NCBI GenBank assembly: GCA_014871385.1 | Contig: CM026426.1 | Span: forward strand, 94,346,238 to 94,410,237 | Direction of reading: 5' to 3' | Source of the DNA: Ceratodon purpureus | Taxonomy: Eukaryota; Streptophyta; Bryopsida; Pseudoditrichales; Ditrichaceae | DNA length: 64,000 nt | Shown here: piece by piece, positions 16,606-56,790 of the stretch | How positions within the stretch are numbered: the stretch's first letter is position 1 | How the letters are laid out: each line of letters starts with the position of its first letter | The notes under the pieces: generated by a model | The model's input: only the letters and a program-made list of their open reading frames with translations | Databases searched by the model: none | Told to the model about the DNA's origin: nothing | Position numbers and translations under genes: made by a program

Positions 16606-16643
16606 TTTTTTAGGGCTTACCCCTTGGCATTTCATGGAATGAG

Positions 16644-16650
16644 TATAAAA
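16644..16650 (+). promoter_or_regulatory. TATA box of hAT1 transposase
   Basis: TATAAAA lies about 40 bp after the GC-rich block and about 210 bp before the chosen ATG at 16856. Other hAT1 and hAT2 genes show the same block-then-TATA order. Confidence 0.6.
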
Positions 16651-16855
16651 GACCCCTCCTGAAAGTTGCCATTACACTTCTGAATTGTACTCCATGTGCT
16701 ACTAGTTGCACTAATATACGTGTGTATCTGTTGCATGGTGAACGGCGGCGTTTAGAAGTGTGTTGAATTGGAGCTTCTTCGGAGGCTCTAGTTCTCTTGA
16801 GGACGTGGTACCCCGATTTTTTGAAGTTTTTCCGGTCGATCTATCAAGTGCACCA

Positions 16856-23473: not shown

Positions 23474-23705
23474 AGTAACCTCGTTTTAAACAAAAACGAT
23501 ATGGTTTTGTTTTAAAGAAAACAAGGAGTTGATAAATGACGGTTTACAAAATAACGAATACAGAAAATTCAAAAACTCCCCCCCCCCCCCCACAATAAAA
23601 AGGGACCCCCATCTCCTCACCCCCACGTACCAACAAGCTCCCAAGTGAATTGGGAAACTGTAGCAATAGGAGAGGGACTATTGAGGAGAGTGAAGTGAGG
23701 AAGTG

Positions 23706-24235: not shown

Positions 24236-26740
24236 TCCCCCCCGTTTTTTAAATACAAAAGAAAAAAACATATAATGCTACATCTTCCGACCACATATTA
24301 CACTTAACTTGTTAATTTCTTTCACCAATTAAAATGAGAGCAGGAGTTAATGTAAACATGAATTAAAATACTTCATGGTATGCAAAGCATCTAAATTCTT
24401 CAACGAGTCATTATTCCGTACGCTCCACCGAAGTAAATGTATGTGTCATTTATTCGAATCATTATTTCTGTTGTTTCTATCGTACGCATTTCATGCTGTC
24501 TATCATCGCACTCCAGAAGTTCCTTGCAGAATTCAAACTCATCTAAACTTGTTTCAGAAATTGTAATCTAAATAGTTCTCCGTCTTCTTATTCTCCGCTT
24601 TGAATTTTTGTTTTTTTAAATACATAAGTACTTCTATTATACTTTCATTAAACGGCCTCATATTCTCAATTTAATTCGAGTTACCATCTCTTTATGTACT
24701 TTTAACATTCCTCCCTCTATACAATTTCCACTTTCGAATATGGTTTTCATTCACTTCTTCTTTATTTTCCTCTATGTTTATTCCCCCCTAGTTTATGCCC
24801 TTTTTTTAACGTCTACTTTGTCTAATTTACAACTCCAACCCTCGAAGCTCCATAAATGTCATTTCGTGAATTTCTTCCTTTCATATCGTTTCGAACGTTC
24901 GTATTTCGATTTATTTCCTCCATGACCCATGTTAAAGTATATTTTACTAATTCGACCACTATTCCACCATTTTACTAATTCTACCCTACTGCTTTAGTTT
25001 TGAATTATATTCTACTAGATGTACCCTATTGCTTTAGTTTTTATTGAGTACTGTACCCCTCTTTCATATATACGTTTTGAACTCTCCATGTATCACTACA
25101 TCATGGCCGACTTCTATTTCTTCTAATAATTATAATTTCTATACTTTCCCTCTCAAACTATTCTTTTTTCGTCTATTATTTTGATGGTTCACTCATTTGT
25201 TTACTTATGAATATACTTCTACTTCACAGCTTTCCCCAAATGTATCAATACGTTATTTCTTAATATTACACCCGTCGTCGTTATAGTTCTAATATTCATA
25301 CCCGTCCTCAAACCTCTTGTTCTTTGTGTTGTTGATTAATTTAATTAATTACTATTCCGAAACAATACCACCCTACCAAACATTGTTCATCAGTATTTTT
25401 AGTATTCCAATAATATATATATATTTCTAAAATTATGTCCCGTCAATATACGTTTTCGTGTAATAATTTTATTTCCGTACTTGTAGCTCCAAGTATTTCA
25501 CGTCGTGACTTTTTAATTTTTCCTTGGTACAGTATAGTCTATGTGTCTCTATGAATTATCGTGTTTGTTAAATTCTCTCATTGTGTCATTAGTAAGTGAT
25601 TACTTTTGTACGTATATACTATACATTGTACAAGTTAGAATCCAATTCCATATTTATATTTACGTTAAAGTGTATATGAATAAACATATATTCGTATAGT
25701 ATATAATGTAAATGTGTTACCTAATTTATTTATTTTATTTCATATAAGTTACAAGGTACAACTCAATTCTAGGCGTGGGAAACTAGAATTGTTTATAAAA
25801 ACAATGATTTCAATTTTAGTCGTTCACAAATTGGCATTATTCAGTGACGGTTGAATGTTTTTTGTTTTTATTTTGTTTTTTACTATTATCCCTTCCTCAT
25901 CTCATAATGTGAGCTAGTGATTTTTTTTTTTTTTTTAATGATAACACAGTACTACGGTATGGAAGTGTGTAAAATAAAAGACATTAAAGTGCAAGGAGAG
26001 TTTTTATATTTCATATAACTCTAAACTAGGCATGAGAAATTAGAATTGGACCATTTGTTATGAAAACAATGATTTGAGTTTTATTCCTCCCATGAATTGC
26101 ATAATCCCAAGAGAGTTGAATGTTTGTTTTGGTTTTTTTCAATTTATTATTATCTCCAGTTTCTCTCATAATCTAAACTACTATTTATGTTTTTATTTTT
26201 GATTCTACCATAATACTAAAGAACGAGAGTATGTAAAATTAAAGAAATAAAACTGGGGTAAATCATTCCATTAAAAATTAGAGTCAAAGAATCTATATAA
26301 ATATTTTCATTGTATACCACTATTCGAGAAGAAATTGGATCTATATTTCTAAGAGATTTATGAAACCGTAAACCGGTGAATTGTAAATGCAAATCTCTTA
26401 ACCATTTAAACGTAAGGTGCACCGCATGAAAAACCAAGTGTATACATCAATTTATGCGTTGAATTACTTCTAGTGCATTCTCTCCGCGATGTTCCTCTTA
26501 TCATATCGTTGTTGACATTTACTCTTTTGATTCGTTAGAATAAAATGTTAATTCATTACCGTATGCTAAATCATGAGTAACTTTGTTTCTTTAAATGACA
26601 ATTGGTAAAAACTGTTTTAGTGTACCCACAATGTTTACGGTTCTTTCCATTCAATAGGATATATATTCTTCTTCATAAACGTGTTCACATTATTTGTAGA
26701 TCCTAGGGGGTTATCCACCCCCAAAGAACCAAAATATCAC
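24236..26740. other. AT-rich 2.5 kb spacer inside hAT1
   Basis: Between two GC-rich blocks, with no frame above about 75 codons that looks real. A short palindrome GGGGGTTATCCACCCCC lies at 26707–26723. I looked for a nested element with its own terminal repeats and saw none. Confidence 0.5.
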
Positions 26741-26974
26741 ATAGTTCATTGGATCCCAATTTCAAACGTCGACCCCACCTCCCCGATCACAGGATCTTCA
26801 GAACATTCCCCACAATATCCGAGATATGTCTGAATTTTCCATTTCTAGGAGATATGCTGTCCAAACAATCCCAAGTGGGATTGTTTGGGACAAGAAGGAG
26901 GGGGGAGAGTAGGGGAGGAGAGGGGGGAGGAGAGGAGAGAAAACACAAGGGGAGGGGAGTTCCTTCGACCCTCC

Positions 26975-27535
26975 CCCCCCCCGGCCGTCCCCGCGTGGAC
27001 GGCCGTCGCCCACGGCCGTCGGATCTTCTCCGACGAGAAGGTCCTACGGCCGCGGACGACGGCCGTCCCCGGGGACGTCCACGGCCGACCCCGCGGTCCG
27101 AAGGTCCGTCCGCGTGGACGGCCGTGGCCGACCGCGGGGTGGAGCACGGCCGTCCCCGCGGGGTCGGACAAGGCCGTCCCCGCGGGGTGGAGCACCGGTG
27201 TCCCCGGGGACGGCCCCGGCCCACCCCGCGGTCGGAAGGGCCGTCCGCGTGGACGGCCGTGGCCGACCACGCCGCTGCAGCCTCCGACCGCGGTGTGGAG
27301 CACGGCCGTCCCCGCGGTGGGCCGCGGCCGACCCCGGGGACGGCCGTCCACGTGGTCGGCCGTCCCGACCGCGGGGCGGCGGTCCACCAACGCACCCTTT
27401 GGGGAGCGGTCGCGGCCGCACGACCGGTCGCGGCCGCGATCGTGGACGGCCGCGACCGGTCCCACGACGGACCAGTTACGGCCGTTGGATTCTCCATTCC
27501 CGAGATCCAACGGCTGTAGGGGGGCCGTCGTTTGA
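26975..27535 (+). promoter_or_regulatory. GC-rich block upstream of the third hAT1 gene
   Basis: About 560 bp of GGCCGTCC/CGCGGACGGCC repeats end roughly 380 bp before the plus-strand gene at 27917. A weak ACATAAATGG lies at about 27565. Six-frame open frames over it are mutually overlapping and repetitive, so I do not call them genes. Confidence 0.5.
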
Positions 27536-27916
27536 CCTAACTGGCTGTCTAGGGGTTCGGGCCAACATAAATGGCTGGCCCTGCTTCCTTTTTCTTCACT
27601 TGGGTGCTCGTGCTACATGTGCTGGATTTACTTCAGCTCAGTTGCGTTCCTCCAAGCTTTTACTACTTCCCCACGGGTTATCGTGGGATTGTGTTTAGGG
27701 TTGTCAGCACCGTTTGTTGGTTATTATGAAACCAACAATATAGTGCTTCATACGTACGGTTTTTTGGCAGGAGTTCTGGGTTTTGTTTTAGTCCTTATGC
27801 ACTAGATATATACGAGATTAAATCAACTTTTATACGGTGGGGAGAAGTTACAGGCATTGTTACGAGGTTGGTTCGATACACGGTATTCACAGCTACTCGC
27901 TTACCGGACTTTCGCC

Positions 27917-29418
27917 ATGCCTCGTAACGACCGGGGAGGACCCTCCACTCCTAAAAGGAAACACCCCTTGGATCCATACGCTACGAATGACCCTGATTGT
28001 GTAGCAGAGATTGGATGGGAGGGGGAACCATCACCATGGCGGATGGTAACTTGCAAGGAATATGTCAAGATGAAGCACCTCATGAAGTTGATCCCAGTAC
28101 ATCTACGTACCGAGGCTGCGGAGAAACAAGCAACACGGGGAGAGATCAGGATCGACAATTGTGAAAGTAATCATTTCAAAATTCGATACAACGAGGTTTT
28201 TCGAGCAGCACGAATCCTGAACTCCCGACCTCATATCATGTTGTATTCGAATATGGCAATGGTGTGGGCAGAGATAGTCTTACACAAGAGGGTTGACTGG
28301 ACCATTGTCTCGGGCTTGAGGACAGATAGAATAAAGAGAGACAGCATGGATCTTGTAACAGACTGGAGTGGACATAGCGATTGTCCCCCATTACATATTT
28401 CAAACCGTCGGAGTCCACCGGCACAAGATGCAGGAATACAAACTCTAGCCATCGAATATAATGATGAGGAACAGGAGAGACGTTGTTTAAGCTATGATGA
28501 TGAAGACAACTATCGAGGGCGTCGCTCAAACAAAAATCTCAGGAATCGCAGAGGGCATCGTGGCAGAGAGTCATCGCGTACCAACCATGAGGAGTATGGA
28601 CAAAGCTCTGCCCACGGGGGACACCGTTCGCTAGATCGTCAGGACATGGGACCCTACGAACAAGGCTATGGCCACGGGGAACCGGAAGGAGCTGATTTAC
28701 CCTTTGACTTTGCGGATGGTGCGTATGGACCCTATGGGGGACGACCGTGGCCAGATTATGCAACGGGATCAAGATACTTTAGTAACTATGACGACGGCTG
28801 GTCGGAAATACCGAGTCCTCCAAGGAGTGCTAGTCCGCGCCATCGAACACCTCCGAGAGAGGTACCTCACGGTTATTCCCCAGATCGCGAAGAAGATACG
28901 CAGAGACTGGGACGTGATGGTTACGCAACTCCCCCTCCATACCGCGGATATGGTGGTCATGGTACCCCATCTGCCCTATTTGCAGAAGATGATTACAGAT
29001 CATCTTCGCGGACTCCACTGGAATATTTCCTCCACCTCTAGGTTATCACACCGACGGTACTGATCACAATAGCGGGGACAACCCTAACGTACTTCATCCC
29101 GATGACAGAGTACCACCTCTTCCTTTTGGATACCCTCCCGGTCGAGTTGTAAGAGATAGCTATTTTGAGGAAGAACTAGAGTTGGAGCGAACAAGGCAAA
29201 ATTACGTACTACAGATGGAGAATCATGCGTTTCACCTTAGACGGGATAATCGAAGATTGATGGAGGAGAGAGAGAGACTTATGAGAGCCTCCACAAATTC
29301 TGTAAGGCACGGGCCACAAGAAACGTACGATCCGGGAGGTCCAAGCGAACTCCCCAATGATGGGAACTATTATCATCCATATGACTACAATGGATTAGGG
29401 TGGAGGGGAGACTATTAG
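27917..29418 (+). pseudogene. hAT1 cargo gene C: shared N-terminal domain, Arg/Gly/Tyr-rich body
   Basis: From ATG at 27917 the protein starts MPRNDRGGPSTPKRKHP. The conserved cargo domain follows (GWEGEPSPWRMVTCKEYVK … MVWAEIVLHKRVDW, about residues 30–140). It matches the N-termini of the hAT1 RING gene and the hAT2 RING gene at 53788. After that comes a disordered stretch rich in Arg, Gly, Tyr, Asp and Pro, then a short coiled-coil (ERTRQNYVLQMENHAFHLRR). The frame shifts near 29015–29030, after which the second frame is open to 29418. No RING finger is present, so this may be a RING-less paralogue. Function unknown. Confidence 0.65.
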
Positions 29419-30368
29419 AATGGGGTGCATGGTAGTACTTTCTACAGCATCGGAGCGTACCGAGACTTTAACGTGGACCTCGCATATTACAAATTTACAA
29501 CGGAAAGTAAAAGATGCAAGCATAGTATGTACGTAGTTTGCAGTTTTGTAGATGGAGGTTTAAAATGTACGGACTCAAGAATACTGGCACGTGCCACATT
29601 TTGCAAGTAGAATAGATATAATTAGTGTTTTAGAGTGTAGTTGTGTTGTCTTTTATATTGTAGTTGTCTTCACATTTGAAAGGAATTTACCTTTTTAATA
29701 TTCTTGTAGCCGTATTCGAAGTGCACATTACTATCAATATCACTATTTTAAAAATGACAACTTCCTATTGACATGGGTTACGACTTACGAGCACTAGAAT
29801 ATAATGAATCTCAAGACAAGTATGCAAAATAATTTTCAATTATTTTTTTGGCTAAATTAATAAGAATATCGTGAATGATATTTTTTGAGGGATGCATATT
29901 TATATCTAAGGTATTTGTTTGTACCGGGGATTATGAGCAATCATGTTTTGATGCCCTTACGCTTTCGTCTTCACAAAAAGAACTTCAGTATACGCTTGCC
30001 AATATTTCTAAGAGTAAAATTTACCAAGCATAACGGTTACAAACTTACAATTCACATATCGCATCATTTTCATAATTAGAATTGAGAGTATCGACTTTTA
30101 GCTAGATGTGTGGAGCCAATCCGTTTTCCTCATAATACAAGGGGTAGAAATAGACCAATCTCAGTACAGAGACCATATTTGAACCAAATGCAAGAAAACT
30201 TTATAAACAAAATATTGACCGGTGTACAAAAATTGAGATTCCAACATCTCATCATAATATGGAGTCTAAATATGACTATTCACTACTGAGAGCTATGCCC
30301 GCCGTCCGGTAACAAAAAAAACATTATGCTTTTATAGGAATACGGAAAGGTAGATATGTAACTCCATA
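29419..30368. other. Convergent 3' spacer in hAT1
   Basis: AT-rich sequence between gene C (+) and the kinase (−), presumably carrying both 3' ends. No gene seen. Confidence 0.5.
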
Positions 30369-31844
30369 TCAGTAACCCACGCGATAGTGCTCGATGGGAG
30401 TGGGCCAGTTGTGTGTATCTCTGAAACGGTTAATAAAATGTCCAAGTCCACCAATTGTTCCTCTGTTGTTTTGGCAAACTCTCTCAAGGTAACCTTCGAA
30501 AACCATTGCGAGTTCTCCAATATTCTGGAAATGGCGTGTTTCTACTGGCTCGGCTTCGTGGTATGCCGTGCACATGTTGCCCCTGTTGATCTTTGCCGCT
30601 ATCTTCGCAGCTGCGAAATCCTCCGATGCAACCGTCAAATCTGGAATGATTTGAATATCTTGGTTTTCCTTGTGTACGTATACCACGCGAGGATCCACCC
30701 AGTATCGCCTCCTCATAGTCTCCTCCTTCTGATGGACACTCTCAAAAACCCAAGGCGACCTTCTGTTCTCTAGTGTCTTTGTCATCAAGCCCCAGTCACA
30801 AACCCCGATGTAGATCTTGGACTCATCTTCCGGAAAGTGAAGTAGGATGTTGTCCGGTGACAAGTCATTGTGGAGGTAACCGTATTTGTGCACAGCATCT
30901 ATGATGTTACACAATGCCCAAGCAAGCTCTGTACGCTTACTTCGGAAAAGTTGGAGACGCTTCCCTAGAATTGGACTGTCCTCTGCATTCCTAGTGAAGA
31001 TGTAGTCGATGGGGAGGTCACCCGGGGCCTCGTTGTCTCTCTGTAGCATGGCTCGAAGGGTCCCACCGTTCCACCAGTACATGAATCCCACATGTTCCAA
31101 CTGATGGATGGCCATGAAGCGGATGACACCAGGATGGGGAATCCTTATCGCAAGAGATTCATTGTTGTGGTCCACACGTGCCAAATCCGGCCTCATAGAC
31201 CAATTGAGCGGCCGTTTCTCAGCAAACTCCCAGTACGGTGGGATTTCCGGGTTTCCTTCGATACAAACCCTACGTATGGTAGCATAACCACCTCTCTGGA
31301 CTTCCTTGTCCAAGTAATAGAAAATTGCAAAGTCTGCCAAGATAGTCAAATGCCGTTTACGTAAGTCAGCCGCCGTCTCCATCCCAATCGGAGAATTCCA
31401 CCAAGTAATAGACGCCCGTCGATGCTTTCTTGAGCTATGGGGCGCCATTAGTCTCGTGAAGCAATCTGCCTTTGGAATAGTATCCTTGAAGGCCTGGACT
31501 CCCCCTCTTTGCGCCTTTGCATACTTAGTAATAACCTCTTTAGCATTCCATAACGCATCGTGTGCACGTTGTGACACGAAATGATCGTAACCGGGCTTTT
31601 GTGTATCCGAATGCCAGCACGGATCCATCAAACGATCCCTAATCTTTGTCTCCATCTCTGACTTGAATTTCCTGGGCCCATCTTCCTCATACCGAACGTA
31701 ACCACTATTCGATGAAACAAGGGTATTCTCCTGGTAAAATTCCACGATGAATGCCACAATATAATCCCTGCAACGTAAGCTCGGCATGTCATCGAATTTG
31801 TTCGCCCATTCCACCACATTCTTCTGCTTCTTGTTCTTCGGCAT
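30369..31844 (-). CDS. hAT1 protein kinase-like cargo gene (491 aa)
   Basis: From ATG at 31844 a single uninterrupted frame gives 491 codons. An N-terminal region of about 175 residues precedes a kinase fold. It has a glycine-loop-like RGGYATIRRV (about 183–193), WEFAEK with the candidate ATP-binding Lys, and HPGVIRF. The catalytic loop is HNDLSPDNILL (HRD replaced by HND; Asp and Asn kept) and the metal-binding motif is CDWG in place of DFG. A clear APE motif is not seen; WVDPRV occupies that place. The hAT2 homologue keeps HND, DWG and a canonical APEL. It is convergent with gene C and preceded by a GC block with a TATA-centred palindrome. Active phosphotransfer is plausible from the residues; substrate unknown. 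Confidence 0.85.
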   Translation of the reverse strand: MPKNKKQKNVVEWANKFDDMPSLRCRDYIVAFIVEFYQENTLVSSNSGYVRYEEDGPRKFKSEMETKIRDRLMDPCWHSDTQKPGYDHFVSQRAHDALWNAKEVITKYAKAQRGGVQAFKDTIPKADCFTRLMAPHSSRKHRRASITWWNSPIGMETAADLRKRHLTILADFAIFYYLDKEVQRGGYATIRRVCIEGNPEIPPYWEFAEKRPLNWSMRPDLARVDHNNESLAIRIPHPGVIRFMAIHQLEHVGFMYWWNGGTLRAMLQRDNEAPGDLPIDYIFTRNAEDSPILGKRLQLFRSKRTELAWALCNIIDAVHKYGYLHNDLSPDNILLHFPEDESKIYIGVCDWGLMTKTLENRRSPWVFESVHQKEETMRRRYWVDPRVVYVHKENQDIQIIPDLTVASEDFAAAKIAAKINRGNMCTAYHEAEPVETRHFQNIGELAMVFEGYLERVCQNNRGTIGGLGHFINRFRDTHNWPTPIEHYRVGY

Positions 31845-32104
31845 CGTGGAAAGCCTTCGAGGCTTCAAGAAATCGTAACCGCAACTCCAAAGAAACTCTC
31901 AATTCCCACAATGATTAATAAGAGCAATACAAATCCAAAGGGTTTTGAAAAAAACCGTTTAAAAATTCGAAAAGTCCCCCCCCCCTCCAAATGAAGGACC
32001 CCTTTCCTCCCGGTGAGAACGACCAACGGAGAAGGATCAAGTCCCCCACCAGTAGCAATCAGCCTCACTCGAAAAGAGAGAAAAAAGGTAAAAAATGAAG
32101 AGGC

Positions 32105-32967
32105 GGCTTCCCCTTATATAGGGGAAGCCGACCTCGCGGCCGTCCCCACGGCCGTCCGATCTACGCCCCCGCGGCCGTCCGATCGGGCGCGACTCCGCCC
32201 GAAGGCGCCGGCCGTCCGATCGGACGGCCGCGTTGGGCGATGGCGCCGCGTGGCCGTCTGACCGACGCGGCCGTCTCCGCGGTCGGCCGCGTCTGCACGC
32301 GGTCGGCCACGCGGACGGCCGTGTCTCCCGCGGTCGCCCACGCGGACGGCCGCGGGATCAGACGGCCCTCCGCGGCCGCCATGGTCGGCCGCGGAGGGCC
32401 GTCCGATCCAGTGGCCGTCCCCGCGGCCGACCGCGGAGACGGCGGCCCGATCGGACGGCCCACCCAGGCCGACCATGGCTGCCGCGGGGCGTCCGATCCC
32501 GTGGCCGTTGCCGTTGCCGACCGCGGGGACGGCCACGGGGACGGCCGCGGGATCGGACGGCCCGCGGTCGGCCGCGCCGATCGAGCGGTCCCCGATGGCC
32601 TGCGCCGGGGTCGATCCGGGCCGTCGGATCCCGCGGCCGTCCCCGAGGCCGTCCCCGCGGTCGGCCGCGGCGACGGCCGTGGGATCTGACGGCCCAGGAG
32701 GGCCGCCCACATCCGACGGCCCGCGATGTGCCAGCACGGCCGCATCTTGGCCGTTGGATCGACGTGCGGCCGTCCCCAACGACCCCGCGGCCATCTCCGC
32801 GGCCGTCCCCGCGGCCGTCCCCGCGAACGGACGGCCGAGATGGGGCGTGGTGGCGGGATCGGCCGATCGGACGGCTGGGGAATGTTTTTACCCCTTCGGG
32901 GTCGCAAAATTATTACCGCGACGTAATTCTCGTGCGTCGGGGACGCCACGTCCGGGACGGGGGACGT
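32105..32967 (-). promoter_or_regulatory. hAT1 right GC-rich block with TATA-bearing inverted repeat
   Basis: A perfect inverted repeat at 32105–32129 (GGCTTCCCCT and its complement) encloses TATAT, about 260 bp upstream of the minus-strand kinase start. Behind it are some 800 bp of GGCCGTCC/GCGGACGGCC repeats reaching toward the right terminus, so the block serves as kinase upstream region and subterminal DNA at once. Confidence 0.6.
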
Positions 32968-33064
32968 CCGGGTCGGACGTCTTGACGTCCGGAGCTGGGT
33001 CGGACGCCTTGACGTCCGGAGCTGGGTCGGACGTCTTGACGTCCGGAGCTTGGTCGGACGTCTA
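32968..33064. repeat. 27 bp tandem repeat next to hAT1 right end
   Basis: GGACGTCTTGACGTCC with GGAGCTGGGTC recurs about 3.3 times with a 27 bp period. Each unit is itself an inverted repeat of GGACGTC. GGACGTCC also occurs near the left end, so these are candidate transposase-binding subterminal motifs (inference). Confidence 0.8.
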
Positions 33065-33086
33065 TTTGAACAACCCTGTGGAGCAT

Positions 33087-41755: not shown

Positions 41756-42672
41756 CTATCTACGTGATGCTCGACTATAGTACTCCTTAGACTGTCTACA
41801 GTTCCAGTGACGGCGCCTCCTCCAAAATCGCTTGGTCTGTTGGACAGGGCACGGCAGAATTGCCGGCAGAGCAAAGACCACATGGGCTGGCCTCCTGACT
41901 CTAATCGGCGAGGAAGGAGAGGGTGGAGACATCGGCGGGGAGCCCAGTGGAGGAGACGTGGGCATATAGCCCGGGGAGGTTGGCTCATACACCGGGGATG
42001 TAGGCATGTACACCGGAGACGTAGGCATGTACACTGGCGAGGTAGGCACAGGGTTGTCATAACGGACGGACATGGGCAAAATTTCCGGACATGGATGGAC
42101 GGACGGACGGACGGACCGTTCGGTCCGGGGTAAAAATCGGACATATTCTATGAATATTCCTAAATTTTTCTCAAATATGCTCAAATATGCTTGAATATGC
42201 TCGAATATGCTCAAATATTCTCGAATATTATCTTATGGACAGGACATGACCCTTAACGGACGGACGAGCGGACCAGACGGTCCGGTCCTTATGTCCCATG
42301 AACAACCCTGGGTAGGCATGTACTATGGAGAGTGGACCTCGAGAGGTCCACTTTCCACACCTACAGGGTTGGCTACATCACAGGTATAGTAGTACTGATC
42401 AAATGAATCTGAAAGATCGGAAACATTGATCACAGAAATGGGGGAAGTAGCGGACATCTCAGGAGCATCGGATGATACCTAGAGTAGAAGAAATGAAGTG
42501 AGGATTAATTTCCATTTTTAAAAGAGTAGGAAACAAAGAAGGGAACAGGGCGAATAGAACTCAAAATCATAAACATAAGAAAACAATATAAATTGTAAAT
42601 TGAATGAAATACCTTAGTTTCTGCTGGCGTCGGGTCTTGACGTTCGCTCCCCATATGATCTCCATTAGAGTC
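41756..42672 (-). pseudogene. CTD-like heptad exons, MULE3 copy, split by MITE
   Basis: Exon 42613–42672 (ATG at 42654) and exon 41756–42479 are joined by a GT–AG intron. They encode SPISVINVSDLSD (SIM-like), then heptads YMPTSPV ×3, a YEPTSPG and YMPTSPP, followed by [11 protein letters not shown] and a basic RRFW-type tail. A TAG at 42325–42323 replaces the CAG present at the same place in MULE2. The 262 bp hAT MITE sits between the first and second heptads. Because the next exon of the methyltransferase-like gene (41610) starts at an acceptor, I infer one gene: SIM, CTD-like heptads, ParB-like, methyltransferase-like. The joining donor is not settled. Confidence 0.65.
42049..42310. mobile_element. 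262 bp hAT MITE derived from the hAT2 family
   Basis: Ends are CAGGGTTGTCAT… and …ACAACCCTG, with perfect 8-bp duplication GGTAGGCA (42041–42048 and 42311–42318). Its left ~95 bp match the right end of hAT2 (GGACATGGGCAAAATTTCCG and GGACGGACGG motifs). Its right ~70 bp match the left end of hAT2. It is therefore an internal-deletion derivative lying in the opposite orientation, without coding capacity. It inserted into a heptad-coding exon. Confidence 0.93.
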
Positions 42673-45550: not shown

Positions 45551-45831
45551 GTGTCTAAGTAACCTAATGACCTTCCTCACAATAAAGGACACCCTAGAAC
45601 TACAGCTTTGTTTATATACTCATCATTCCTAACTACTACTGAAGAACTCATCCCATCATAATAATATTGATCACTGACATGTACCTCTAAAATTTGTCAC
45701 TGACATCGAACAACTAAAGATAAATTAATTTTGAATTAAAGTTGATGTGCAGATAAATATAATTAAAATTTATCAAAAATTTAATAAAATCGCCACTAAA
45801 ATAGAATTGGTGACAATGAGTCACTCATCAC
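45551..45831. other. Left half of MULE3 divergent promoter region
   Basis: AT-rich region upstream of the two-exon gene, ending in the left copy of the hAT2 target duplication (45824–45831, CTCATCAC). It continues at 56791 once hAT2 is removed. Confidence 0.6.
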
Positions 45832-46330
45832 CAGGGTTGTTCATGGGACAAAAGGACCGGTCCGTCCGTCCGGTCCGCTCGTCCGTCCGTTAGGGGTTAG
45901 GGGAGGTCCGTTTGACCAGGACTTACAGTTGACCACCCAAATGGTGAAATGGGAGTTACCTTGGCCACCTAGGATGCCACGCGTCTGACATGTCACCAAA
46001 TATTCCACATATATTGTTGACTCGGGGGATGACGTGGCTAAGAGGAAGGGCGCCAACGCCTTGAGTGAGGGGGGCGCGAGCGGCTGAGAGGGGGGGCGCG
46101 AGCGTCTTGGGAAGGGGGGCGCGAGCGAGGGGGCGCGAGCGACTGGGAGGGGCGCGGGCGCCTGCGAGGGGGGGGGGGGGGGGCGCGAGCGCCTTTGATG
46201 GCGGGGGGGGCGCGAGCGCCTGCGATGGCGGGGGGGGGGGGCGCGAGCGCCTGCGATGGCAGGGGGGCGCGAGCAAGGGGTTTACGGTGGGGGCGCGAGC
46301 GCCTGCGAAGGGGGGGCGCGAGCGGGGAAC
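45832..46330. repeat. hAT2 left terminal region with GC-rich block
   Basis: CAGGGTTGT, then GGACCGGTCCGTCCGTCC-type sequence to about 45895, then (46040–46330) about ten units of GGGGGGCGCGAGCGCCTGCGA. Frames across it are compositional. Confidence 0.85.
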
Positions 46331-46495
46331 ACGAATCAACCATTGAAGGAAATTAAGACATGACTGAATTATTCATAGTGACATAAATGAGAGAAGTTTC
46401 AATTCATGTCGAAACAAAATTACATTCAATAGCCTTAGCTAATGTTTTTTGGACATTGACTAAGGTTAACATATAAGTATCTACGTATAAAATTT

Positions 46496-46532
<37 letters not shown>
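46496..46532. repeat. (TA)n microsatellite
   Basis: An uninterrupted TA run of about 17 units lies within hAT2, downstream of the transposase gene end. Confidence 0.9.
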
Positions 46533-46536
<4 letters not shown>

Positions 46537-46587
46537 TTTTTTGTGTTTTTTTAAAATTATTTTGGAGACATATATATTAAACTTTCT

Positions 46588-49500
46588 CTATATAACTTCT
46601 ATACGTAATATGCTGAAAGATGTATTACTTTTTTTAATTTTTTTGGCGGTGCGCCGCTCTGGATTCCTTCGAGTACCGGGCATACCCAATGGTACTCTTA
46701 CAACAATGTCTTCATCATCAGGTGCTTCTTCACGGCTATCTTCTGATGAGTAATATCCTTCTGAGGATTTCGACCCCTCGTCATCTCCATCTCCCCCCTG
46801 ATTAGGCACAACTCCTCCACCGTGGAATGAATGTTGCGCAATTCGTGGTCAATTGTACCATCCACCACTGTGGTCACAATTCTTTTGATCTTCTGTCTTT
46901 TGGTCTTATCGGTGATTCCGTCCACATTCATTACGGGTAATCTACGTTTACCCACAGCCACAGGTAAAGACGGGGTTGTCCCAACAGTATCTCTTGAAAA
47001 AAAAGGGCTAACGTTTGTTGGACCTTTCCGTGACCATATCACTCCATGACGCATCGTAGAAGGTCCAGCCGGTAGACCTCCTCCAGAAGAAGTGAGTGGA
47101 ACACTTGTATTCGGTGTTGGAATTATTGAACCATGCCCAGTAGAAGTGGTTGAACGAGGTGGGGGAGGTCTACCCAACCCTGCAAATACTACTCCGATTG
47201 AAGGTGTACTCTATGGCAGGGGTGTTTGAAACAATCGGCCGGTAGGAATTTCATCTTCTTGTCCATTTCTGACTGTCTCTGATTGTTCATTTCTTGGAGG
47301 GCTTTCATTCAAACCTCCGGACCTGATTGTTTCCTCAACATTTTCTGGCAGAGCGCCTCGGAGTTGTTCAACTTCTTCTCCTCCCTCAACGTCTTCTGGA
47401 ATTGGAATTTGCTCTCCCATGTTGTTACCCCCTCCTTCATTGTCATTGTTCGAAACGCTACGAACGGGGTAAATGTCATCATTATTGCCACCATCGTCGC
47501 TTTGATGCTGAGTCATTTCGACTTCAAATTCATCGTCAATATCATCGTCTGCCCGATCGTATGCGACCTCGCCTCTAGTTTGTATTTCATTGACAACGTC
47601 GTGAGGCGAAGTAGCTGCCTCTTCATCAAATCCTGCCCAGTCAAAAACTCCATTCGGCTGGTTAACGGGTTCAGTGCGTGGCATGTCACCATCAGCATTG
47701 TCCACGGGTAACTCCTGATACTCATCATCCATAGTAGCAGGAGTGTAATGAACTCCACCGTCATCACCATCGCCTTCATTATCTTCAAGTCCGTCGTGGA
47801 ATCCTTCATCTCCATCATCATCACATACGTCTTCATCGTACATGGCTGGAACTTCTTCATCCGAGTCTTCGGAGAACGGTTGGTTCTCGTACCAAAGAAC
47901 AGGATCCGCTCCACGTCGTTCTCAAAGGAGCTTACAGTTCGTGTAAATGTACACCAAGTCCTCTGCCTTCTTCACGGCCAATCGGTTGCGAACCTTACTG
48001 TGAACAAAGGAATACATGCTCCAATTTCGCTCACATGATGATGCCGAGCATGTTAACGAAAGGATGCGCTTTGCTATCAACGGTAACGCATCGCCCCCAA
48101 CCCGCTGCCACCATTGATGAGGTAGCATCTTAGTCTGTCGAATGTTTGGGGCCTCCAAAGGGCTGAATGGACCGGTGCGTTCCTCAAACTGTGTTAGCTC
48201 GAACAACACAATATCGTGGTCCAGTTTAAGGGACTCACTCAAATGAATTAGCACTTGCAGGAGTGCACGCTTTGCAGCACTGTTAGTCAATAGCTCGTGG
48301 CTCTCCGGGAAAATGTAGGGATTCAAAATGGCGCCTGCGTAATGGAGATCTGTCAACATCATCTTCCATCTCTTCGTAAAATGTTTCTCAAAGCGCCCTG
48401 CTATAGCGGGGTCTAGGAAAAAAGGATCACCCCGTAGACGGAACACATGCTTCTTCAAATTATTCATGGCCAACCATGCCCTCCCCATTGCCGGTGTTTG
48501 TCCATCAAATGTCTTCAAGGTCACAACAGCCGGCTTCATAACATGCACAAGATCCTCACAACGTAACCAAAATGTCTCATCGAGAATGGTACTCCGTACT
48601 TGACATGCTAAGGCGTGAGCTCGATACCCGTTTGACCGATTGAATAAAGTACCCACATATTCGTCCCATTTCGGACTGGCTACCACCTGGATTAGTGCCT
48701 CCCTCAGTTGAAGCAATCGAACAATCATCAAGTACTGGCATCCAAATCTTGTCTCCGCTGGTAACAACAGAGACAACTTCGGGCTGAATTGGCGAAACAA
48801 AGCCATGGTGACATGACGGCGACGTATAAAATTTGGTATGCGTTTTGCCAAGGCAATCAGCTCTTTGAAGGTTGCTTCCTTCCCCCAATCTTCTAGTAAG
48901 AGGTCCATGATGTGAGCTGCACAACCTTGCTTGTAAATGTGAGGATAAGCTTCAACCACCTGGTCCATGGCTCCCAACATCGCACTAGCATTGTCGGAGC
49001 AAATCTGTACCACATTCTGCGGTCCAACTTCTTTGATGTACTCTTTCAATTTCCCAGCTATGTATGCCTTTGATTTCTTTTACCCCGTTGTATCAATGGA
49101 ACCCAGGAATATATCTCCTGCTGGACACACAAGCATGACATTCATCAACGGCCGATGAACAGCGTTGTCCCATCCATCCGAGCAAATAGTTGCCCCGTAC
49201 AAGCTAATACACTGCTTCGTTTTTTCCTCTATTTTCATCTTGAGAAGCTGCTTTGTTGGCTGGATGTGCTTGGTTCGCATTGCGTTGTATGGTGGTGGAC
49301 GGTAGACAAAACCCGCTTTCAATGTTGCCTCCACAGCAGCGATAAAAGATGGATGTCTAACCACATTGAAAGGCACATTCGCTTCGTAAAAAAAGGACGC
49401 CCATTTCTCATCCAATTCATTGCGCATCCCAATCTGATAGGCCTCGGTAAAATTTTGTTGCTGCATAGATCTTGGTGTACATGAATCGCCTCTGATTATA

Positions 49501-49907
49501 GGCGGAGTTGATTGAGATGGTTGAACTTGGGAAATCCTCTCCTCTTGGACCTCCTCCGTTCTCTGAGGCACTTCCGTAGATTGCTCAGCAGGCATAGACT
49601 GGCTAGAACATGGTGCCAAGTGTGCCAAGTGTGCCTCGCCATCACCACCATCAGTGCCGTATATCTCCGCATGTGTCATTCTTTTTGGTATTACATTACC
49701 ACAATTGGCAAAGCGCCTAAATACGGCGGCAGGGGCCTTGGTACAATGACTCTTGCTTGAACCTTCACCCCATCCATAGTGCTTCATAACTCTTGCTCGT
49801 TTATAACGAAAAGTGAAATTGCACCACACACATTTAACATGGTCCTTATCAATGAACGTCCACCACGGAGCCCACTTAGCCGTCGACTGACGCTGTTGAC
49901 CTGCCAT
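46588..49907 (-). pseudogene. hAT2 transposase with acidic C-terminal extension
   Basis: The start ATG is at 49907 (MAGQQRQSTAKWAPWW). A BED-like finger (HVKCVWCNFTF…MKHYG) is followed by a DUF659-type core (YRPPPYNAMR, ICSDGW, QICSDNAS, GCAAHIMDLLLEDW). The dimerisation motif SASSCERNWSMYSFVH lies near 48010. One reading frame covers everything down to about 46800 but has three in-frame stops: TAA 49082–49080, TGA 47924–47922 and TAG 47213–47211. Beyond the usual hAT end comes an Asp/Glu-rich extension of about 350 residues. A slip at a six-G run near 46795 returns to an acidic frame ending at 46588. The hAT1 transposase has a comparable extension, so it is probably part of the protein. Confidence 0.9.
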
Positions 49908-50101
49908 TCTCCGTGTCTCTGAAAAAGTACAATGATCTCCTATTTGCAAGTGTTAGTATGACACATGTGAGAAAAAAATGGTATGTGTAGACATCAACCA
50001 CAGGCCAATGTGATGCACATAGTCTCAAGCAAGGAGCCCACAAGGAGTTCCGGGACTAGAGGCCATGATTTCAAATGATATTACGCTTGGGCTAAGTTGG
50101 T

Positions 50102-50440
50102 GGCATTTATACTTGTGAGGGGGGGCGCGAGCGTCTCCAGGGGGGCGCGAGTTTCTCCAGGTGGGGGGGCGCGAGCTTCTCCAGGGGGGGGGGGGGGGGG
50201 GGCGCGAGCTTCTCCAGGGGGGGGCGCGAGCTTCTCCAAGGGGGGGGCGCAACCTACTGCAAGGGGGGGCGCGAGCTTCTCAGAGGGGGGGCGCGAGCTT
50301 CTTAGAGGGGGGGGCGCGAGCTTCTGGAAGGGGGGGGGGGCGCGAGCTTCTGGAAGGGGGGGGCGCGAGCTTCCAGAGGGGGGGGGGGGGGGGGCGCGAG
50401 CTTCCAGAGGGGGGGAGGCACCCTTGTACGAGAGGCAGTC
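50102..50440 (-). promoter_or_regulatory. GC-rich block and TATA box upstream of hAT2 transposase
   Basis: On the minus strand TATAAATG (about 50111–50104) lies directly at the gene-proximal edge of about ten GGGGGGCGCGAGCTTCTCCAG-like units (50116–50440), some 200 bp before the start codon. Confidence 0.6.
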
Positions 50441-50635
50441 CCGGTGAATGGGCCATACAGTTTTTTAATTTTTTTTTTAAAAACAATTTTTCATTCCATT
50501 ACAAAACCAACAATACCATTTCATGTTCCACCAAGGCATGTATACGCCGAAAAAAACGATTTATTAAAATATTAGAAATGTGCAAACAAGGCCACATAGG
50601 CAATCAAAATGTTCCAATCGTAATTCACTATGGAA

Positions 50636-52126
50636 CTACAATGTGTATCTAAAACAACCATTGGGAGCTTGGAAGTTGTGAGGGGGGCTCATCAAATCAT
50701 TCACAACTTTTGCAAGTGAAAGCCTCTTTGTAGGATCTTCGTTAAGCAAGCCATCCAACTTTGATGAGAATACAATCTTTGAGATTGAATCCTTGAAGAG
50801 TTCTGGGCAATCTTCTTCTCTCCATATCATCTTTGCCAAATGGCCTACCGAAAATGCATCAGATAGCGTCGTACATGGATGCATCCTCTTCATGCGCTCC
50901 AAATTCCGTTCCTCATCATCTTTCTTGCCATATAAAAAGAACAACTCCGGTGCAACTCCTACCCTCCTCTCCTTTACTCGTACAAGATCATCGGGGTCCA
51001 TCACACCATAAGGGGAGGCCTTCTTCTCAATGACTCTGCTTGCCACACCCCAATCGCACACACCAATATATACTTTATCCTTGTCATGAGGTGGAAAGTG
51101 GAGTAGAATGTTGGATGGCGTTAAGTCGTTGTGGAGGATTTCAGCCTTATGGACTATGTCCATAACGTAGATGAGACTCCACGCCAACATTCCCCGGTTC
51201 TTTCGATAGGCAACAATTCTTTGGCACTCTTCCATGGGCATATCCCTCGACTTCAAAATTTCTTTGTAATCTGTTGCCTTGCTTGCCTTCTCATTTAATT
51301 TGAGGAAGTTGCGGAGGCAATCTCCATTCCACCACAGGGTATAAGCTTCCATGGTCTTCGAGTGAATGGCCCAAAATTTTATCACACCCGGATGCTCTAC
51401 GGGGTTAACCGTGGCCTCAATCGCCCGTTCCTCTCGCTTCTTCACTTTGGTTTTAGCCTTGGAAAGTTTTCCCGCAAATTCTATGTGAATTGGAATTTTC
51501 TTCATATTGGCTATTCGCACTTTTCGCACTTTCCCATACCCCCCCTCGGCATTGAAGCCAGATAATGGCACAACCTTGGCCGTAACCGGAATCCATATCA
51601 ATGCACCATACATGTGTGCTTCCAATGCTGAGTTCAATGCTTGCTCATTCCAAGGCATAATCTTTGTTTACCCCTTAGAACATCTCTGACATGCCTCCTG
51701 AACCGTTGTCAGTTTTTGAATAAACACTTTGTCTTGGTTGCTCCATTCTTCGCCTTGTGGTTTCTTGACATGTGATTCAAACACATGAATGACATTTGTC
51801 GTACCACTACTCACTTGTTGTGTCAACCACTTCGGGCTGTGAAAATACTTCGTCTTGCAATCCATGTACAACTCTGATCCTTCCAATGCGCTCCAAAATT
51901 CCCTTTCCAAATCACGTTGGAGGTTGTAGATACCATTCTCTCCGTGATCAAGGTACATTGCCTTCAACATTCGTATGGTACGGGCCCTGTAGTACTCGAC
52001 GGTCACCTTCCTGATGAAATGCGTATACTCCAATGGTGGATAACCGTCATCCTTCTCGTGCGCTGGAATACTCTTCTTCTTTTTACCCTTCGAGCTAGAT
52101 GAAGGAGTAGAACCCAGTAGAACCAT
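50636..52126 (-). pseudogene. hAT2 protein kinase-like cargo gene
   Basis: From ATG at 52126 one frame runs 496 codons with a single TAA at 51670–51668. After the stop the kinase fold is complete. It has EGGYGKVRKV (glycine loop), FAGK (candidate ATP Lys), HPGVIKF, HNDLTPSNILL (catalytic loop with HND), CDWG, VGVAPELFF (APE) and DAFSVG. Architecture and the HND/DWG variants match the hAT1 kinase, including an N-terminal region before the glycine loop, though overall identity is low. An upstream ATG at 52217 opens MSSRQGSGKRPIYED in another frame and may be the original start. It lies behind a GC-rich block with TATATAAG. Confidence 0.85.
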
Positions 52127-52373
52127 GAGGTCTTACGCAACTCATAGGGTCCACCGCATCTGGAGCATCCAAATCCTCATAGATAGGCCGCTTGCCGGAG
52201 CCTTGTCTAGAAGACATCGCAAAGTAAATCCCTGAAAAAAAAAATCAACAACTTCCCCCCCCCGCCCCAATAAAGACTTCCCACATAAGCAGTTCCAAGC
52301 AAGGCGTGTTTTCACACGTCAGGACAAGGAGCCGCAGTGGGAAGGAGTGGGGGGGGCGAGAGCTTCTCCCCAC

Positions 52374-52612
52374 CTTATATAGTCCCCCACGGACCCGCTC
52401 GCGCCCCCCCCTGAACCCGCTCGCGCCCCCCTGTATCCGCTCGCGCCCCCCCCCCCCCCCTATACCCGTTCGCGCCCCCCTCGTACCCGCTCGCGCCCCC
52501 CGACCCGCTCGCGCCCCTGTACCCGCTCGCGCCCGTACCCGTCCGCGCCCCCTTCACCCGTTTGCACCCCTTCGGACACGCTCGCGCCCCCCCCCCCCCC
52601 CCCCCCCCCACC
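52374..52612 (-). promoter_or_regulatory. GC-rich block and TATA box upstream of hAT2 kinase
   Basis: On the minus strand TATATAAGG (52382–52374) sits at the edge of repeated ACCCGCTCGCGCCCCCC units (plus-strand reading, 52386–52612), about 250 bp before the kinase start. Confidence 0.6.
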
Positions 52613-53446
52613 TTTTGTTTTCCAACTTATTTTTTAATTTTCTATTTTTCTGGAAATAGTCAAATCTCTACACTACTTTCTAAGAGAAAAAAATAAAATA
52701 AAAACTTAAAAAAACAAATTAAAAAATAGAAACTATGGGGATTTTATACATGCACAACCTCTCATTCAGCTCTCTTCCACTCCATGCTATTGATTTAATT
52801 TTAAAACGTCTATCTGCCAAACCAATTGCATCGAGCCCCTTCTTAATGATTCTTTATATTTTTAATTATATGTTAGAGCATTGTAGGATCCGTATGTACA
52901 ATGAAATATATAGATTTTTTTTTTTAAACTCTAATTCAACTGTCTTCCACACCATGCTATTGATTTTATTTTATTCCTTTTATCTCTTCCTCTCCATGAT
53001 ATTGATTTTATTTTATTCCCTTCGTCTCTTCCAATGTTTTATCTTTTTTAGATTTCCACATCTCTTCTAATATTAATGCACTAATTTTTTTGTAGCCAAC
53101 ATTATATTATTCATGGTGCATTAGATCAGTATTCCGTTATGGCATAACTCAGTTTCTAATCATCATGAGATTTATTCATCTTGATAACTTCTTTCATCCC
53201 ATGTTATTCATCCCTTTTTATCCCGAGTCTCTTATTATAGTCATGATTGTTTTTCTATAACTTGATATCTCATCCCCAAATTATTCAAATCAGTATTCCT
53301 TATTTTAATATCTCTTTGTAATTTTTTATTTTTTATTTTATTTTTGAGAGAAATGGTGAAAAAATCCATTGCATTTGTTTTTATTATTGTCTTCCAACCT
53401 TCTTCAATGCTACTCCTAAGAAAAATGAGAGATTGTTTTAACGGGG
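52613..53446. other. AT-rich spacer between two divergent GC blocks
   Basis: About 830 bp lie between the divergent kinase and RING gene upstream blocks. No frame looks like a gene. A local near-repeat of TTGATTTTATTTTATTC occurs at 52962 and 53002. Confidence 0.5.
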
Positions 53447-53526
53447 GGACCCTCTCGCGCCCACCCCTGGACCCGCTCGCGCCCCCCCCATACCCGCTCG
53501 CGCACCTCCCCCTGAACCCGCTCGCG

Positions 53527-53559
<33 letters not shown>

Positions 53560-53569
53560 ACTATATAAG
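53447..53569 (+). promoter_or_regulatory. GC-rich block and TATA box upstream of hAT2 RING gene
   Basis: CTCGCGCCC units and a C-run of about 29 bases end at 53558; TATATAAG follows at 53562–53569, about 220 bp before the ATG at 53788. Confidence 0.65.
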
Positions 53570-53787
53570 TGAAGGGGGCGCCCTCCCCCCCCCCACTTTT
53601 TAAGCTCCACCTTGGCACTCAGGCCTTGAACTACCTCGCGGTGGCTTATTGCTGAGTACTTGGGTGGGCCACAAAGTATAGTTAGAATACCATAATCAAC
53701 CACGTAGGAAAATTGTAAAATCAATTGGGGGAAGTTTTGAGGAGTTGGTGTGTTTTTTAACACACAAAACTTTACCAGTACACCACG

Positions 53788-56165
53788 ATGGAGGGAAACC
53801 CAGATCCGGCGGCGGAAAGGCCACTCACCAAGGCCGAAAAGAAAAAAATCAGAGATCGTGAACGGAAGCGTGGTGGTAAGAAGATGAAGAAGCGGCTTCA
53901 TGTGCTGAACAACCCGACAAAGTTGGCATTTAGAGGTTGGCAAGATGAGCCGGAACCGTGGAAATATTCCACATGCGAGGAATTCATTGAGTGGTGCCAC
54001 ATCACAAAAATATTTCCACATGATCGGCACTGAAAACACATGATCTCAGACAAGGCTAACCTCTATTATTGCTTGAATGCGGAGTTTGTTGAACGTTCTA
54101 TACAAGTTTACCAGCATCTATACAAGCAATCTTGTGTCGAACGCAATGAAGTACCATTGTTCATTTGCAGAATGGTGTATGCTGAGGTGGTGCTTCACAA
54201 AGTGGTGGATTGGTCCACCATCAAATCCACGCCGAGTGTTAGGGCGCCGATAGAGCGTGACATTCCCAAACAAAGGAAATACGCAGATGGTGGTCTGGGG
54301 AAAAAAATGAAGCTAAAGCCAAATACGGGAGCCTGATACAGCAGAGTCTGAACCAGATTCTGATTCCGATGGTCGTCGTGGAGAAAGAGTGCCACGTAGA
54401 ATTGCAGCACCAGCAAATATGGCTGTAGAGCCTCCAATGAACCATCCAGCGGACGTCATAGAACCTCACGACGATGCGAACACCATCTTCGTGGAAAACG
54501 ATCCAAATACGGCAGCTAATTTGGAGGTGGTCGGAACTGAACCTACGATGGTTCTTGGCATGCCGGTTATAGTTAGAAATGACCATCAAACCAAACCGAG
54601 GAGGTCGGGGAGTTGCAATTACAGGTTATAGAAAAGGATGGCTTCATTGCAGAGTTACAAGAGACCATCCAAAAACTACGATTGGAATCAGCAGCAAAAG
54701 ATGCAGTAATATCAGATTTGCGCAATCAATTGCAAGAACGAGAAAGACCTCAGTCTTCTCAAGCCAATGATATACCTGTAGTTCAGGATCCAATGTTGGT
54801 GGATGAATCTTACATCAACAACACGGTTGATGTTGCGACGGCCGGTGTGTTGGAGAATATTTCCACACCAGCAAAACGACGACGAGTTGGAGTGATATTG
54901 CCTCCACCAGCCCCATACCCGCGACCCTATGTGGACATCGATGGACCATTAAGTCAAGATTCCTTGTCATTTCCACCGAATGCTCTAACGGGAGAAGTGG
55001 AGACATTGATGAGAGCCAATAATGATTTGCGGCTCCTTGTTTCTAAGTTTGCTAAAGCATACTACGAGTGGAAAGTGGCAACCATTCTCAGCGTTGATCG
55101 CGGTCGCCAAATTGCATTAGAGTTCAAGAAGATCGACGAATCGTACTTGCAACACAACAGACGAAGGAATTTTGGCCTCACTTCATGGATTAACGCAGAT
55201 GATATGTATCCAGATGACATGCCAATGCAAGAATCGAATCCTAAACTCATAGATTGGGCCCAGTTGAATTTCGATGTGGAGAACGCAACTTCGTGCCATG
55301 ATCTTCAAATGAAGGAAGGAGTTAATAGCAGAAAGCTTTGGCCAAATCCTCAACCGTGGGTGATGGATGGTTCAAAAGAATGTAGTGTGTGTCTAAATAC
55401 ATTTGGTCCTGAGGGTGGATGGGCAGTTGTCCATCATGTACCCACATGTTCCATCCAATGTGTTTAATTAACATTTTTTTGGTAAGGAGATTTTGCCCGG
55501 TGTGCAAATCCCCGTTCCATGAACGCTTGTACGAGGTTTTTGGACTCACTCCATACATGCCACCAAGCCATGAGAGAAATCCCGAAAACACACCAGGTGA
55601 ACAGTACCGCAACATGTGGGGGGAAGATTTGATTTGGAGTTGGCGGGCCCAGACTCACTTGGTCTTCGAGAGCAATGTAAGTGACGAGTTGGGGTGGGAG
55701 AATGACGACGAGCAGATTGTGAGGGTGTGCAAAAAGATAATTGGATCAGCGAAGGAGGACCAAGGGAAACGAAATTTTTTCTATGAGACTTTGAATGGAT
55801 ACTGGAATGCGAAGCATAAGAAGTTCCAACTTGGTACGCACCCAAAAGGCCTCATATGGAACAAGGAGGGGGAATTGGTTACAGACCTTAAAGGTCACGC
55901 CACTCTGACCGCCCAAGAGGCAGTCCAAATGTCTCTTTCGAAGTGGAAGTATGTTTTCAAAAATGAAGCTGTTGACTTTCTTCTGGAGGAACACTCTCCA
56001 CAGACATTGCGTACATTGAGAGAATTGAGGAACTCGCAAATTTTGCATTCTCTCAGTGAAAGTGATGGCCCATTCCGGCGGACACGGACGAGAGCCAGGC
56101 GCAGCTTGACGCTGGACGATGGAGCGGGACCAAGTGGCACAGCGGGAGTAGATGCAGATGAATAG
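53788..56165 (+). pseudogene. hAT2 RING-H2, coiled-coil cargo gene
   Basis: The start ATG is at 53788 (MEGNPDPAAER), with a basic KKKIRDRERKRGGKK region. The shared cargo domain (GWQDEPEPWKYSTCEEFIEW … MVYAEVVLHKVVDW) follows, then an acidic linker, a coiled-coil (VIEKDGFIAELQETIQKLR, about 54620–54760) and a RING finger. The RING runs CSVCLNTFGPEGG into SCTHMFHPMC and FCPVCKSPF (about 55380–55520). The C-terminus is basic then acidic. Defects are a TGA at 54031–54033 and frame changes near 54325, 54600 and 55425, the last inside the RING. Alignment with the hAT1 RING gene over domain, RING and the MPPxHE segment supports a common origin. Confidence 0.82.
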
Positions 56166-56423
56166 GAATAGTTACAACTTAGTACTAAGTGACTAGTTTT
56201 CATATACTACAGTTTTTGTAATGTTTTGGTTTGAATTGGTAAAGAAATGCTTTTACTTTCATAAATGTATACAACATTGCAAAGTCCATGTATTTTGGCT
56301 CACGAGTATCTAAATTTACACATTTGTCATTGCGCTTAGCCCCAATATATTATTCTGATGAAAATGTTAGGTTTTTTTGCATTGTCAAAAATTTACTATC
56401 TACAAAATGGGCTGCACGAGAAA

Positions 56424-56782
56424 CCCGCTCGCGCCCCCCCTGAACCCGCTCGCGCCCCCCCTTGAACCCGCTCGCGCCCCCCCTTCAACCCGCTCGCGCC
56501 CCCCCCCCCCCTGAACCCGCTCGCGCCCCCCCTTGTACCCGCTCTTGCCCCCTACACATGCTGGCACCCCTTTTGCATATATGGAGTTCCCCGTCATCGT
56601 TCGTTGTCCATGTCATCAATATGTTTCCCCTATAGGTAAGTTGTAAAAAAAAAAAAACTAACTTAGTAATTTTCCTCCTCCCCTCAATGTCCGATTATGT
56701 CCGGGGACCGACCGGTCCGTCCGTCCGTCCGTCCGTCTATGTCCGGAAATTTTGCCCATGTCCGTCCAAATAGACAACCCTG
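56424..56782. repeat. hAT2 right terminal region with GC-rich block
   Basis: About seven AACCCGCTCGCGCCCCCC units (56424–56570) are followed by (56700–56782) GGACCGACCGGTCCGTCCGT and CGGAAATTTTGCCCATGTCC motifs and the terminus ACAACCCTG. The last ~90 bp match the left end of the MITE at 42049 in inverse orientation. Confidence 0.85.
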
Positions 56783-56790
56783 CTCATCAC

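Follow-up and report, generated by a model that had tools for sequence, protein, structure and literature searches.

A decayed hAT transposon of the moss Ceratodon purpureus and the kinase and RING genes beside its transposase

Introduction

It is well established that transposons of the hAT family move by cut and paste, through the hAT transposase. In other plant DNA transposons, the VANDAL MULEs, an accessory anti-silencing protein, VANC, is also encoded. The present study concerns hAT2, a hAT-type element found in a stretch of 64,000 nucleotides of the moss Ceratodon purpureus (assembly GCA_014871385.1, contig CM026426.1, positions 94,346,238 to 94,410,237 of the forward strand; this whole stretch is called the window), and its diverged relative hAT1, located in the same window. 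In both elements, the transposase is accompanied by a protein kinase and by a protein with an N-domain, a coiled coil and a RING finger, encoded by what is called below the RING gene. Taken as a whole, the data are probably best explained if the decayed hAT2 comes from an old moss hAT lineage that has kept kinase and RING as accessory genes. As in the VANDAL elements, an accessory protein is found beside the transposase of a plant DNA transposon; the superfamily is a different one, the accessory proteins are unrelated to VANC, and an anti-silencing role of the moss cargo is only putative.

hAT2 resembles the hAT superfamily of the DUF659 type by its 8-bp duplication and by its DUF659 and Dimer_Tnp_hAT domains. 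Its CAGGGTTG ends fit the consensus [T/C]AGNGNNG given for plant hATs in the accessible part of a 2018 survey, where the longest consensus measures 7,144 bp and where no Physcomitrella hAT is reported as found (PMC6027215). The moss elements differ from the hATs described in that part of the survey, since hAT2 reaches 10.95 kb with three genes and hAT1 16.87 kb with four (PMC6027215).

Accessory enzymes of DNA transposons found in the open-access literature are fungal. According to the accessible part of a study of TET/JBP-carrying DNA transposons in fungi, these include hAT7, with 7-bp duplications, and IS3EU, with an alpha-kinase (PMC12730594). As far as that part goes, the moss elements are similar in that enzymes accompany the transposase, with a kinase in one fungal lineage, and dissimilar in having a typical protein kinase together with a RING protein, and 8-bp duplications. 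The giant Starship transposons of fungi, as described in the available portion of a further source, use a tyrosine recombinase and carry up to hundreds of accessory genes (PMC12134995). They too are large cargo-bearing eukaryotic elements, whereas the moss elements use a DUF659/hAT transposase and have a fixed, small gene set. No recombinase family occurs among the Pfam matches of the scanned window frames, and the hallmark of a Starship is thus missing from them. In the open-access literature, to which the search was confined (subscription papers and Repbase lay outside it), no moss hAT with kinase and RING genes was found. The moss hAT family, with its dozens of copies, its constant set of kinase and RING genes and a promoter type that may be common to them, would offer a tractable case for studying how plant transposons act on their host.

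Boundaries and genes of hAT2

The 10,951 bp of hAT2 in C. purpureus (window 45832-56782) form one hAT-type insertion, flanked on both sides by a perfect 8-bp target-site duplication, CTCATCAC, and ending in the terminal inverted repeats CAGGGTTGT (45832-45840 on the plus strand, 56774-56782 on the minus strand). These ends and exact flanks confirm the second bounded giant hAT announced by a preliminary description of the window. The terminal word by itself is no proof, since a scan for CTCATCACCAGGG with two mismatches allowed gave one site versus 1.7 in shuffled sequences; the evidence for the boundary is the exact pair of 8-bp flanks at the two inverted ends, which for preset ends would arise by chance about once in 65,536 (by arithmetic). 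The 8-bp duplication, CAGGG-type short inverted ends and PF05699 dimerisation domain expected of a hAT element are all present. In addition, a miniature inverted-repeat transposable element (MITE) of 262 bp (42049-42310) has ends matching those of hAT2 at 94% and 85% in gapped alignments of about 80 bp, and its own duplication, GGTAGGCA. Therefore, elements with such ends have moved nearby. The features are as follows (window coordinates; strand where one applies):

45824..45831, left target-site duplication CTCATCAC
45832..45840, plus, left terminal repeat CAGGGTTGT
46074..46323, minus, left terminal array, 10 copies of GCTCGCGC
46698..49907, minus, transposase frame with DUF659 and hAT dimerisation domains
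50105..50111, minus, TATA box before the transposase
50125..50401, minus, array upstream of the transposase, 10 copies
50639..52126, minus, protein kinase
52375..52381, minus, TATA box before the kinase
52397..52587, plus, array upstream of the kinase, 7 copies
52641..53400, AT-rich spacer (28% GC) between the divergent kinase and RING promoters
53475..53527, plus, array upstream of the RING gene, 3 copies
53562..53568, plus, TATA box before the RING gene
53788..56165, plus, N-domain/coiled-coil/RING gene, split over several frames
56427..56526, plus, right terminal array, 5 copies
56774..56782, minus, right terminal repeat
56783..56790, right target-site duplication CTCATCAC
16209..33078, hAT1, diverged relative with transposase, RING gene, gene 3 and kinase
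42049..42310, MITE with hAT2-type ends, duplication GGTAGGCA

The transposase (minus strand) matches DUF659 in two pieces (E-values 1e-17 and 2.8e-8) and Dimer_Tnp_hAT (PF05699, 3.6e-7); its frame, which ends at codon 1070, is interrupted by stops at codons 276, 662 and 899. The BED zinc finger PF02892 has an E-value of 0.26 in hAT1 and is not among the Pfam matches of hAT2. The kinase (minus strand) matches Pkinase (4.9e-11), contains a single in-frame TAA, at codon 153, and retains the motifs FAGK, HND and CDWG. The RING gene (plus strand) has one stop plus frame changes. Its RING half, located after a frameshift that divides the zinc ligands (as read by eye), has a Pfam score of only 0.018, and aligns with the hAT1 RING protein (139 amino acids, 30% identity, 1e-19) and with the proteins P0057-P0059. 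With stops or frameshifts in all three genes, hAT2 is a relic, probably of a cut-and-paste transposon from an old moss hAT lineage.

hAT1 (16209-33078) measures 16,870 bp and is flanked by the target-site duplication TGGAGCAT. It carries homologues of the transposase, kinase and RING genes of hAT2, with identities of 36%, 28% and 30% (C-terminal part of RING), respectively. The same types of cargo are therefore present in both elements, as had been claimed. The further claim that the cargo recurred independently is not upheld: since their genes are homologous, hAT1 and hAT2 are not independent recurrences. The gene order is transposase (plus), RING (minus), gene 3 (plus), kinase (minus) in hAT1 and transposase (minus), kinase (minus), RING (plus) in hAT2. 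Gene 3 (27917-29418) is thus a fourth gene; it shares its N-domain with both RING proteins, its C-terminal part is coiled-coil-like by eye, and no Pfam match was found in the part scanned (27806-29038). An N-domain common to the kinase and RING proteins was also considered and rejected (profile comparison probability 0.1%). Open transposase frames also occur: one of them, P0060, shares 98% identity with the hAT1 query, and stops are absent from many of the 45 genome copies described below.

Linkage of the cargo in the Ceratodon genome

In the genome, 87 of 1130 kinase, 45 of 1434 transposase and 43 of 1576 RING candidates received a score; because this is only part of the candidates, all counts are lower bounds, biased to well-preserved copies. 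Among the 45 scored full-length hAT1-type transposases, 28 are followed at 9.7-11.1 kb by a scored kinase of opposite orientation, and about 1% of transposases would be expected to have a kinase within 20 kb by chance. A scored RING gene, also downstream and opposite, accompanies 22 (20 of them at 465-539 bp), and both genes are listed for 16. No kinase is listed within 20 kb for the remaining 17. The DNA of ten of these was read, and contains the kinase in seven cases, the RING gene in all ten and gene 3 in nine. Two of the three copies read without a kinase have a listed one about 21 and 27 kb away in the expected orientation (hand reading), and the third has 10,000 N within its two stretches; among the seven copies with unread DNA, a kinase is listed at about 24 kb from one (hand reading). 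In turn, the twelve copies for which a kinase but not a RING gene is listed all proved to have the latter when their DNA was read.

Altogether, a kinase is found within 20 kb of 35 of the 45 transposases (three were read without one, seven unread), and a RING gene beside all 41 examined, four of the 45 being outside this count. Gene 3 occurs in 10 of the 11 hAT1-type copies examined for it, L038 included. The idea of a cargo stably belonging to the element is thus borne out for the hAT1 family, in which most full-length relatives carry the cargo instead of lacking it. In this light, kinase and N-domain/coiled-coil/RING proteins are very probably stable accessory genes beside the transposase. 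For hAT2 itself, cargo stability would follow from the comparison with hAT1 and from the contig L001 described below.

These counts bear on annotation, since at least 87 kinase and at least 43 RING loci of the genome, many of them open, belong to transposon protein families. The hAT1 kinase is 96% identical to KC19_VG055000 of C. purpureus. Contig C6, which contains the window and represents 110.5 of the 362.5 Mb, holds 52 of the 87 scored kinases versus 19 of the 45 scored transposases. From the "VG" in the locus name, we take C6 to be the V sex chromosome. With 52 of the 87 kinases located there, gene counts of this chromosome need to be compared with this family. A second hAT1-type copy, on contig C4, has a visible left end, its right end being inside an N stretch.

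Conservation of the cargo proteins

In an alignment of 30 kinases (29 of the 56 matches plus hAT1, with hAT2 excluded), K210, E229, D327, N332 and D350 do not vary in any of the 30 proteins, even at identities as low as 21%. These positions correspond to the catalytic Lys, Glu, Asp and Asn and to the Mg-binding Asp of protein kinases. Pfam Pkinase matches 28 of the 30. Over all 56 matches, an HND-type loop is present in 46 and CDW in 51, the misses including short proteins. The AlphaFold model of the hAT1 kinase has a predicted local distance difference test score (pLDDT) of 84, and all 50 PDB matches listed for it are protein-kinase entries (template modelling scores to the target of 0.39-0.65); a protein-kinase fold is accordingly predicted.

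In the RING protein, the C3H2C3 ligands of a RING-H2 finger (C727, C730, C745, H747, H750, C753, C764 and C767) are invariant in the four aligned rows. The AlphaFold model of this protein, with a mean pLDDT of 38, was not used. The pooled ratio of non-synonymous to synonymous substitution rates (dN/dS) in hAT1-type copies is 0.35 for the kinase (one pair), 0.50 for the RING gene (78 pairs from 13 open copies, median dS 0.012) and 0.51 for gene 3 (15 pairs from six copies).

Linkage in other contigs and gene trees

A transposase profile search of genome contigs gave three short contigs, two of which (L002 and L003) contain transposase pieces only. The third, L001 (6,291 bp), carries the C-terminal part of a transposase, followed by an intact RING gene of 855 amino acids, oriented alike, and lastly by a 21-bp GC-rich tandem array. 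Although L001 is recorded as Synechococcales (AVDCRST_MAG81), a cyanobacterial metagenome bin, it carries a moss-type transposon and is likely a contamination of that bin. No relative was found in genome contigs with the kinase profile, nor in viral contigs with the kinase (single sequence and profile), the transposase profile and the RING profile.

Among the protein matches, equal source-contig sizes associate transposase P0062 with RING P0058 (7,321 bp), transposase P0067 with RING P0059 (8,444 bp), and transposase P0079 with kinase P0037 (27,639 bp). When sizes were jittered, one or more kinase-transposase matches above 5 kb occurred with a frequency of 0.011, and two RING-transposase matches in 0 of 20,000 trials. 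The identities to hAT1 of transposase and RING C-terminal part fall in parallel, from 81 and 69% in the 7,321-bp pair to 55 and 47% in the 8,444-bp pair and 36 and 30% in hAT2.

Kinase and transposase trees (41 and 38 rows, midpoint roots) contain few linked sets, most rows being unlinked. Both show a well-supported deep split, with hAT2 on one side and hAT1 and the 27,639-bp pair on the other. Congruent trees had been named as the mark of long co-evolution; agreement is indeed found at the deep split, for few linked sets, and is in doubt at the hAT1 clade, as discussed below. Separately, a motif SGAE[VI]K.DSDY lies near the transposase terminus in 15 of the 55 transposase matches (P0060-P0114); it is absent from P0087, P0088 and P0090-P0095, on the hAT2 side, and is perhaps a modification or docking site.

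GC-rich arrays and TATA boxes

Each element has its own repeat word: GCTCGCGC in hAT2 and GGCCGTC in hAT1, with yet another in the array of L001. All 35 occurrences of GCTCGCGC in the window fall within hAT2, in five clusters, where 30 shuffles lead to an expectation of 0.6; GGCCGTC occurs 82 times, 79 of them in hAT1, with four clusters in this element (4.8 expected from 30 shuffles). Nine of the ten stretches of the window with at least 65% GC are such arrays. A GC island is located 108-337 bp upstream of all seven gene starts of hAT1 and hAT2, which circular shifts reproduce in 0.04% of cases (0.0004). TATAWAW is found within 100 bp of the gene-side array edge for five of the seven genes, versus none for the far edge, and beside neither terminal array of hAT2 (one direction was tested per edge). 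As these tests were framed after the pattern was seen, the p-values for arrays and TATA boxes are descriptive. The hAT1-type copy on C4 has four islands and the same boxes.

The element-specific word suggests one promoter type for transposase and cargo. From the sequence, it is somewhat probable that transposase and cargo do share such a type, made of an array and a TATA box. The promoter of each gene would then lie behind an array of element-specific GC-rich repeats, so that transposase, kinase and RING protein would be expressed together from like promoters. In a more speculative reading, taken up below, the joint change of the repeat word across the promoters of an element would be what one expects of an element-encoded protein that recognises them.

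Alternative explanations and possible role of the cargo

Several points weigh against the readings proposed above. In the case of the promoters, two of the seven genes have only near matches to a TATA box, CATATATGG and CATAAATGG. No array precedes the RING gene of L001; there is a lone degenerate unit beside TATAAAA, and this unit ties with a coding window, its score being reached in 1 of 40 shuffles. The MITE with hAT2 ends contains GGACGGAC repeats and no GCTCGCGC arrays, which suggests that the GC arrays are dispensable for mobility. It may be asked whether the arrays are something other than promoters: subterminal repeats to which the transposase binds, or repeats that expanded through slippage and lie between genes by chance. 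Arrays at both ends of hAT2 without a gene start, the array after the RING gene of L001 and the poly-G/C runs suggestive of slippage all go in this direction. Nevertheless, the position of an array just upstream of every gene start, the confinement of TATAWAW to gene-side edges and the movement of the MITE without arrays speak for promoters, and this alternative view of the arrays, though conceivable, is less probable.

As for the cargo, hAT2-type elements are represented by a single copy read, the census being of hAT1 type only. The equal-size pairs suggest transposase-RING and transposase-kinase linkage from contig size, the contigs being unseen. A dN/dS near 0.5 indicates constraint, but a moderate one. 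In the trees, the hAT1 clade is sister to the rest of its group for the kinase but nested in the group for the transposase; the two trees, in which most rows are not linked, may thus disagree on its place within its side. Finally, there is no collinearity between the gene orders of hAT1 and hAT2, and inverting one of them does not restore it; this is also compatible with separate acquisition. Each of the two hAT families might have gained its own kinase and RING genes, either out of the same host gene families or out of the other family through passive exchange of genes between transposons; the accessible part of the fungal study proposes such exchange for TET/JBP genes (PMC12730594). Separate gain would account for the differences in order and orientation and for the possible tree conflict. 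Against this, RING and transposase identities drop in parallel, the deep split is common to both trees, and the three gene types recur together in a layout that is constant within the hAT1 family, so that separate gain is unlikely. It is even less probable that the cargo serves the plant and that copies are kept as helpful to the host. The many copies with open frames and a dN/dS below 1 could be understood in this way, but the abundance of near-identical young copies (see the low median dS of the RING gene), the frequent stops and the transposase-like promoters fit selfish use better.

If kinase and RING genes have been kept by the element, it may be imagined that their products act for it, most simply by phosphorylating and ubiquitinating a host silencing factor or the transposase. 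Such a kinase-plus-E3 mode of action, put forward by analogy with VANC and with the TET/JBP and alpha-kinase proteins of fungal transposons, is a tentative proposal. The same reserve applies to a wider, rather speculative scheme, in which kinase and RING E3 ubiquitin ligase would constitute a self-contained signalling set under one element-specific promoter code, that is, an autonomous regulon modifying host proteins to escape silencing.

Surroundings of the elements in the window

The window also contains a satellite of about 20 copies of ~161-bp units (390-3627) and retrotransposon frames with reverse transcriptase, RNase H and integrase (33813-36207). To the right of hAT2, the region 57213-63828 has long open frames of 660, 505, 212, 200 and 205 amino acids, one of which gives a weak match to a SWIM zinc finger (E-value 0.014); this region is perhaps another DNA transposon.

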